Part shown: positions 47,930-49,315 of the stretch, piece by piece
Numbering within the stretch: position 1 is the stretch's first letter
How the letters are laid out: every line of letters starts with the position of its first letter
From: Halpernia frigidisoli
GTDB taxonomy: Bacteria; Bacteroidota; Bacteroidia; Flavobacteriales; Weeksellaceae
Direction of reading: 5' to 3'
DNA: 64,000 bases
Assembly: GCF_900113805.1 (NCBI RefSeq)
Contig: NZ_FOQT01000002.1
Span: 62,001-126,000, forward strand
Notes under the pieces: generated by a model
Database searches by the model: none
The model's input: the letters and a program-made list of their open reading frames with translations, nothing else
Told to the model about the DNA's origin: nothing
Made by a program: the position numbers and the translations under genes

Positions 47930-47937
47930 TAAATTTG
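47930..47937 (+). promoter_or_regulatory. -7 promoter box before the UMP synthase gene
   Basis: TAAATTTG matches TAnnTTTG, 16 bases before the start codon. The -33 part is not clear. Confidence 0.4.
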
Positions 47938-47953
47938 CACCAAACAAAAAACA

Positions 47954-49315
47954 ATGGATAATAAGGAAAGTTTTTTATTAGAATGTTACAAACTGGGCAT
48001 CATAAAATTTGGAAAATTTACCCTAAAAAGCGGCATTGAAAGTCCTTTTTACGTAGATTTAAGACCACTTGCTTCTGACCCAAAAATTTTAAAAAAACTA
48101 TCCAGTTATTTGTTAGAATTAATTTCTACAACCGATTTTGATATTATTTGCGGCGTTCCTTATGCGGCGCTTCCTATGGCGACGGCAATGTCGCTTCAAA
48201 GCGAATTGCCTTTAATTATTAAAAGAAAGGAAGCAAAAACTTACGGCACAAAAAAATTAATTGAAGGAATTTTCAGTACGGGACAAAATTGTCTTTTAGT
48301 GGAAGATGTTATTACGAGCGGAAAATCTTTACTGGAAACTATTCCGGAAATTGAAAATGAAGGCATTTCTGTTTCAGATATTGTGGTTGTTTTAGACCGT
48401 CAGCAAGGTGGAAAAGAACTTTTAGAGGAAAAAGGTTTTAAAGTTCATTCACTTTTTAACATTACAGAAGTTTGCGAAATTTTAAGAAATAATAATTTAA
48501 TTTCAGAAGAAGAAATCACCAGAATCAATGATTTTCTCACTGGAAATGAAGTAAATTTTGAAGTTGAAAAACACCTGACTTATGAACAAAAATTAGAAAA
48601 AACCAATAACTCTTTCGCTAAAAAGATTCTGGAAATTGCTATTGAAAAAAAATCTAATTTAATCGCATCTGCAGATGTTTTGACGACAAAAGAACTTTTA
48701 GATTTTGCCGAAAAAGTGGGTCCAAATATCGTGGCTTTAAAAACGCACATAGATATTATCACAGATTTTGATTTCGATGAAACCATTTTACCTTTAAAAG
48801 AATTATCAAAAAATTACAATTTTCTTTTAATGGAAGACCGCAAATTTGCTGATATTGGAAATACTCAGGAATTGCAGTTTGCTAACGGAATTTATAAAAT
48901 TTCTTTCTGGGCAGATCTTGTGACTTCGCAGGTGATTGGTGGAGAAACTTCTTTAGATTGTTTTCTAAATGTTGGTGTAATTGCCATTTTAGGAATGTCT
49001 TCGAAAGGAACTTTAACGAATTCGGATTATCGCGAAAATGCTTTAAAAATAGCACTTTCTCATCCAAATGTGATTGGTGGCGTTTCTCAAAATAAAATTC
49101 CGGAAGACCTTTTATTATTTACGCCGGGTGTGAATTTAGAAAACTCCGGCGACGGAAAAGGGCAGCAATATAATACGCCGGAATATGTTTTTAAAAATTT
49201 GCAAACCGATTTTATTATCGTAGGACGCGGAATTTACAAGGCGGAAAATATTGAAAAAGCGTCTTTAGATTATAAAATTGCCGGGTGGAATTCTTATTTA
49301 ACGGGCAATAAATAA
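47954..49315 (+). CDS. Fused orotate phosphoribosyltransferase/OMP decarboxylase (UMP synthase)
   Basis: One protein of 453 residues carries the last two steps of UMP synthesis. Residues 1-200 are orotate phosphoribosyltransferase with GKFTLKSGIESPFYVDLR, RKEAKTYGTKKLIEG and the PRPP loop LVEDVITSG (115-123). Residues 215-453 are OMP decarboxylase: LIASADVLT, ALKTHIDI (Lys263), MEDRKFADIGNT (Lys297, Asp300), and C-terminal FTPGVNLENSGDGKGQQYNTP with IIVGRGIY. Domain order and these motifs match the eukaryotic UMP synthase (human UMPS) rather than the usual separate bacterial PyrE and PyrF. It is transcribed alone. Confidence 0.94.
   Translation: MDNKESFLLECYKLGIIKFGKFTLKSGIESPFYVDLRPLASDPKILKKLSSYLLELISTTDFDIICGVPYAALPMATAMSLQSELPLIIKRKEAKTYGTKKLIEGIFSTGQNCLLVEDVITSGKSLLETIPEIENEGISVSDIVVVLDRQQGGKELLEEKGFKVHSLFNITEVCEILRNNNLISEEEITRINDFLTGNEVNFEVEKHLTYEQKLEKTNNSFAKKILEIAIEKKSNLIASADVLTTKELLDFAEKVGPNIVALKTHIDIITDFDFDETILPLKELSKNYNFLLMEDRKFADIGNTQELQFANGIYKISFWADLVTSQVIGGETSLDCFLNVGVIAILGMSSKGTLTNSDYRENALKIALSHPNVIGGVSQNKIPEDLLLFTPGVNLENSGDGKGQQYNTPEYVFKNLQTDFIIVGRGIYKAENIEKASLDYKIAGWNSYLTGNK

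Follow-up and report, generated by a model that had tools for sequence, protein, structure and literature searches.

A fused UMP synthase conserved across the Weeksellaceae as a probable relic of ancient gene exchange with eukaryotes

How did a bacterium come to carry, in a single gene, the two last activities of pyrimidine synthesis arranged as in animals and plants? The question is raised by an open reading frame of Halpernia frigidisoli situated in the analysed stretch of 64,000 nucleotides (hereafter, the window), read in the first-pass annotation as a eukaryote-type fusion of OPRT (PyrE) and ODC (PyrF). Plants and metazoa have the two enzymes fused in the order OPRT–ODC (PMC2705460); in oomycetes, diatoms, kinetoplastids and some cyanobacteria, ODC precedes OPRT (PMC2705460; PMC7052976); Chlamydia possesses pyrE without pyrF (PMC3091639). 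No description of the animal-order fusion in Bacteroidota was found in the literature searched, most subscription papers lying outside the search, and databases may well already label Weeksellaceae proteins automatically as UMP synthase. The enzyme is of a known kind and turns up in an unexpected group of hosts. The gene and its parts are located in the window as follows:

47930-47937, forward strand: TAAATTTG, putative -7 promoter element, 16 bases 5' of the start codon; weak
47954-49315, forward strand: UMP synthase (umps) gene, fused OPRT-ODC, 453 aa, ATG to stop
47954-48559, forward strand: OPRT (PyrE) domain, residues 1-202 (PF00156, human OPRT 2wns, fold match)
48224-48256, forward strand: OPRT flexible-loop motif RKEAKTYGTKK, residues 91-101 (alignment of 21 diverse fusions)
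48299-48328, forward strand: PRPP-binding motif VEDVITSGKS, residues 116-125 (alignment and family knowledge)
48560-48607, forward strand: interdomain linker, residues 203-218, variable in length and sequence (alignment columns ~205-225)
48608-49300, forward strand: ODC (PyrF) domain of eukaryotic type, residues 219-449 (PF00215, fold match)
48740-48742, forward strand: ODC catalytic Lys263, corresponding to yeast K59 (alignment with yeast ODC)
48833-48859, forward strand: ODC catalytic motif EDRKFADIG, residues 294-302, with D295, K297 and D300 corresponding to yeast D91, K93 and D96

The succession of OPRT and ODC in one chain, claimed by the first-pass annotation, is borne out by Pfam (Pribosyltran, residues 42-156, E 1.3e-10; OMPdecase, residues 234-437, E 2e-41), by NCBIfam (pyrE TIGR00336, 140 bits at a cut-off of 106.8; pyrF TIGR01740, 146 bits at a cut-off of 92.3) and by fold matches. 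All the motifs it quoted were found in the 453-aa protein, i.e., GVPYAALPMATA at residues 67-78, RKEAKTYGTKKLIEG at 91-105, EDRKFADIGNT at 294-304 and FTPGVNLENSGDGKGQQYNTP at 389-409. A chance reading frame is excluded, since the orthologues are intact and collinear in hundreds of genomes; stops abound on the reverse strand of 47954-49315. In the alignment of 21 diverse fusions, R91, K92, E93, K95, G98, T99 and K100 of the flexible loop are invariant, as are D118, S122, G123 and S125 of VEDVITSGKS; the catalytic role of the former motif and PRPP binding by the latter are presumed here from what is known of the OPRT family. In the ODC half, Lys263 is invariant in the aligned Weeksellaceae (19/19), Saprospira, human, coffee and yeast, and the same alignment shows D295, K297 and D300 to be invariant as well. 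Upstream of the gene, TAAATTTG matches TAnnTTTG, which we take to be the Bacteroidota -7 promoter consensus. The GC content of umps (32.7%, vs. 33.5% for the window) is ordinary for its surroundings and fits an old resident. The neighbours of the gene differ across Weeksellaceae; together with the ordinary GC content, this renders the genomic location uninformative on origin.

Conserved residues, the sole copy and family-wide conservation make it very likely, as far as activity can be read from a sequence, that the window protein is a working bifunctional UMP synthase and the only one in the cell. The genome encodes one ODC, that of the fusion, which is also its only protein above the pyrE cut-off of 106.8 bits, the next matches of the pyrE model scoring ~22 bits. 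A search for stand-alone pyrE and pyrF elsewhere in the genome, suggested in the first-pass annotation, found none left. The N-terminal OPRT would convert orotate and PRPP into OMP, releasing pyrophosphate; decarboxylation of OMP to UMP would fall to the C-terminal ODC. The fusion would then be the only enzyme of the cell for the final two de novo pyrimidine steps, having presumably displaced separate pyrE and pyrF such as those of other Bacteroidota.

The likeness to eukaryotes is clearest in the ODC half. In a single-sequence search, its best matches among solved structures were the enzymes of coffee (PDB 8u0z, Coffea arabica), human and yeast (E 1e-55 to 1e-49), to which it is about 43-45% identical; a profile of 21 fusions scored 264 bits against human, 263 against coffee and 247 against yeast ODC vs. 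56 bits against the top prokaryotic ODC of known structure. The ODC part of the predicted model (mean pLDDT of the protein 79) matched the yeast, human and coffee folds with Z 28-29, and those of Leishmania, Toxoplasma and Plasmodium with Z about 18. The window protein matches yeast ODC at all 12 residues checked, K59, D91, K93 and D96 among them; 11 of these positions are invariant in the 19 aligned Weeksellaceae, the exception being Y217, which is Y or F. In a tree of 61 rows, Weeksellaceae, Saprospira and the eukaryotes (three rows of this type: human, coffee and yeast) formed one group (support 99/100), and the stand-alone PyrF of other Bacteroidota (28/28 rows) formed a separate one (100/100). 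Within the former group, Weeksellaceae (100/98), Saprospira (100/100) and human–coffee–yeast (99/96) were all separate. With an archaeal outgroup, the human–coffee–yeast clade was recovered again without bacteria (99/97) and Weeksellaceae became paraphyletic, a single Weeksellaceae clade not being rejected (AU p 0.205), nor were alternative topologies generally (AU p 0.18-0.21); with ~4 changes per site, the outgroup branch is too long for placing the ODC root. Judging by sequence comparison, the ODC half belongs with the animal, fungal and plant enzymes and stands outside other bacterial PyrF.

The affinities of the OPRT half are mixed. Its top solved-structure match is human OPRT (2wns; E 1e-52 to 1.3e-53, 185 bits; fold match of the model Z 25.6), followed by Leishmania with 131 bits and bacteria with at most 81 bits (best E 3e-21). 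It is 43% identical to human OPRT, 36% to that of Leishmania and 24-29% to typical Bacteroidia PyrE, the range across stand-alone Bacteroidota PyrE being 24-37%. At the same time, two family models score the window and human proteins alike: PRK13809 gives 204.3 bits for the former, just below the cut-off of 208, and 205 for the latter, and PRK05500 gives 162 (OPRT part only) and 166 bits, respectively, at a whole-model cut-off of 656. The first of these models is presumably chlamydial and the second cyanobacterial. On these scores, the OPRT type seems to be common to eukaryotes and some bacteria. In the OPRT tree, human, Leishmania, Weeksellaceae and Saprospira were set apart from stand-alone PyrE (81/70) with no clear order among the four, other groupings not being rejected; the window protein grouped with human OPRT at a support of 81-94, one eukaryotic OPRT of matching type being sampled, and the closest stand-alone Bacteroidota PyrE were separated at 100/99. 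Escherichia coli, which fell inside the OPRT group on a branch of 4.7, was rejected as a long-branch artefact and left out of the final trees. Hence, the epithet “eukaryote-type” holds for the ODC half (99/100 in the tree; 247-264 vs. 56 bits) and has to be relaxed for the OPRT half, which PRK13809 and PRK05500 suggest is not exclusively eukaryotic. As to the trees proposed earlier, which would have refuted the reading by placing both domains firmly among bacterial PyrE and PyrF, the ODC falls outside bacterial PyrF, and the OPRT leans likewise, weakly (81/70).

The whole-genome distribution searches covered Bacteroidota. The fusion was present in each of the 286 sampled Weeksellaceae genomes with a completeness of at least 90% and in 31 of the 33 genera. 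The orthologues are 52-88% identical, the top one belonging to Halpernia humi (88%), followed by those of Kaistella, Chryseobacterium, Bergeyella and Riemerella, all of them Weeksellaceae. The gene was not found in two incomplete genomes of the family (89% and 56%), probably owing to assembly gaps. A PF00215 scan of Weeksellaceae was positive in 93/93 cases, with a single match in nearly all. An extra stand-alone protein of 209-227 aa with a full-length PF00215 match was seen in 2 of 98 positive genomes (G459:C1:2998192-2998797 and G484:C16:65868-66470) and is perhaps a hexulose-phosphate synthase. One Weeksellaceae genome (G602:C177:421532-422880; L124, L126) displays the fusion broken into two overlapping frames, which may reflect either a sequencing frameshift or a truly split gene.

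Outside the family, other Bacteroidota harbor separate stand-alone PyrF and PyrE. Among the matches listed for 395 Bacteroidota genomes, none outside Weeksellaceae was full-length, the top one reaching 110 bits and spanning just the OPRT part; in 392 genomes of the class outside Weeksellaceae, nothing matched at E <= 1e-30. The only other Bacteroidota found with the fusion are Saprospira, where it resides on three of the 72,556 plasmids searched. The Saprospira protein, annotated as pyrF, is likewise a fused OPRT–ODC, about 42% identical to the window protein over 96% and 43% over the full length; unlike the window gene, it is plasmid-borne and adjoins a class 1A dihydroorotate dehydrogenase (DHODH) and guaBA. 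Its ODC is not nearer to that of the window (44% identity) than to eukaryotic ODC, each of the two being 43-46% identical to the human and coffee enzymes. A search of viral contigs by means of the fusion profile, limited to two short patterns, found no relative and no giant-virus bridge; phage records gave OPRT-region matches only and, among the matches listed, none over most of the fusion.

Set against the known systems, the window-type enzyme shares with animal and plant UMP synthases the order of the domains, the catalytic residues and about 43-45% identity per domain (human, coffee), but it occurs in bacteria, as a clade of its own next to that of the eukaryotes. Yeast URA3 is similar in its ODC (43% identity, fold Z 29.0) but is unfused, and yeast OPRT is of another type (57 bits to the window OPRT). 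The fusions represented by Leishmania 3qw4 and cyanobacterial PRK05500 are also bifunctional, with a related OPRT (36% for Leishmania, 162 bits for PRK05500), but their domain order is reversed (ODC–OPRT), and the Leishmania ODC differs in type, with 19% identity to the window ODC and a fold match of Z 18.6. The stand-alone PyrE and PyrF of Bacteroidota catalyze the same two steps from separate genes, with the ODC in a distant clade.

Taken together, the family-wide fused UMP synthase points to an old exchange of genes between bacteria and eukaryotes, in either direction, by which it would share ancestry with animal and plant UMP synthases and with fungal ODC. The fusion would have been acquired once, before the radiation of Weeksellaceae, and inherited vertically within the family since. 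To this explanation as a whole (bifunctional enzyme, single ancestral gain, old exchange) we assign a probability of roughly 85%. It is highly improbable that the PyrE and PyrF native to a Flavobacteriales ancestor were joined by chance in the eukaryote-like order. According to Makiuchi 2007 as relayed in PMC2705460, such fusions did evolve repeatedly among eukaryotes and cyanobacteria, with either domain first. However, the ODC tree, where the fusions (99/100) lie outside Bacteroidota PyrF (100/100), led us to reject a chance fusion, and the OPRT half is 24-29% identical to typical Bacteroidia PyrE vs. 43% to human OPRT.

As for the direction of the exchange, we lean slightly toward transfer from a eukaryote to a bacterium because of the narrow and patchy distribution of the fusion in Bacteroidota. 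The sequences speak against a recent copy of an animal, plant or fungal gene, since human, coffee and yeast group by themselves (99/96). The donor might instead have been an unsampled protist or early eukaryotic branch, from which the Weeksellaceae ancestor took the gene, Saprospira acquiring it separately; we hold this tentatively, at a little short of even odds. Apart from the distribution, it is favored by the domain order, the same as in plants and metazoa (PMC2705460), by the distance of the ODC from all prokaryotic ODC of known structure (56 vs. 264 bits) and by the Saprospira–window ODC identity of 44%, no closer than that of either to human and coffee (43-46%). Still, the bacteria are not nested in the sampled eukaryotes (human–coffee–yeast clade 99/96 and 99/97), among which no specific donor lineage was found. 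The fuller scenario, with a eukaryotic UMP synthase replacing two essential housekeeping genes for good in the Weeksellaceae ancestor and independently reaching Saprospira, where plasmids now carry it, is possible, though we would put it somewhat below even odds. The converse, that eukaryotes received UMP synthase from bacteria, or both sides from a common bacterial source, with descendants of the bacterial line surviving in Weeksellaceae and Saprospira, is the more doubtful direction, yet far from negligible: the sampled eukaryotes are a clade inside a larger ODC group, the rooted ODC tree places the Weeksellaceae branches below them, albeit weakly, PRK13809 scores the two OPRT alike (204 vs. 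205 bits), and plasmids such as those of Saprospira offer a route for interbacterial spread. At the same time, the long outgroup branch may itself have produced this weak rooting, and, with the other sampled Bacteroidota lacking the fusion, many losses or a donor from another phylum would be needed.

If an old exchange is indeed the explanation, the family-wide swap of two essential enzymes would offer a clear example, and one that can be dated, of bacteria and eukaryotes exchanging genes of central metabolism. Orotic aciduria concerns human UMP synthase, which also activates 5-fluorouracil; this relevance makes bacterial versions of the enzyme useful in structural work. Weeksellaceae include opportunists, e.g., Elizabethkingia, and a host-like UMP synthase in such organisms calls for caution in choosing it as a drug target.

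A number of observations concern the preceding step of the pathway and the surroundings of the gene. The only DHODH of the Halpernia genome (G000:C5:193519-194451; L191:1444-2379) belongs to class 1A (PRK02506, 520 bits, cut-off 301); its nearest solved structure is a DHODH A, presumably that of Lactococcus. This class is uncommon in Weeksellaceae (21/120 genomes, 5/33 genera, including the divergent g183, g185 and g196). In g196, a class 1A DHODH gene lies divergently beside the UMP synthase gene (L205:503-2852, L206:669-3031), and on the Saprospira plasmids it is directly upstream on the same strand (L104:2425-5362), which places the last three steps to UMP next to one another. The joint transfer of UMP synthase and class 1A DHODH as one module is not supported, because the Weeksellaceae DHODH are nearer to that of Lactococcus (60-70%) than to those of Saprospira (51-63%). 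The Saprospira plasmids, 53-55 kb in size (L103:1-2181, L104:1-5362), carry UMP synthase and DHODH along with guaB/guaA; the latter pair was seen on the plasmid of strain CCB-QB6, and guaA also on that of WH. Genes of central nucleotide synthesis are thus plasmid-borne here. In Saprospira strain Lewin, the ODC end occurs a second time, as a partial copy next to a KilA-N gene.
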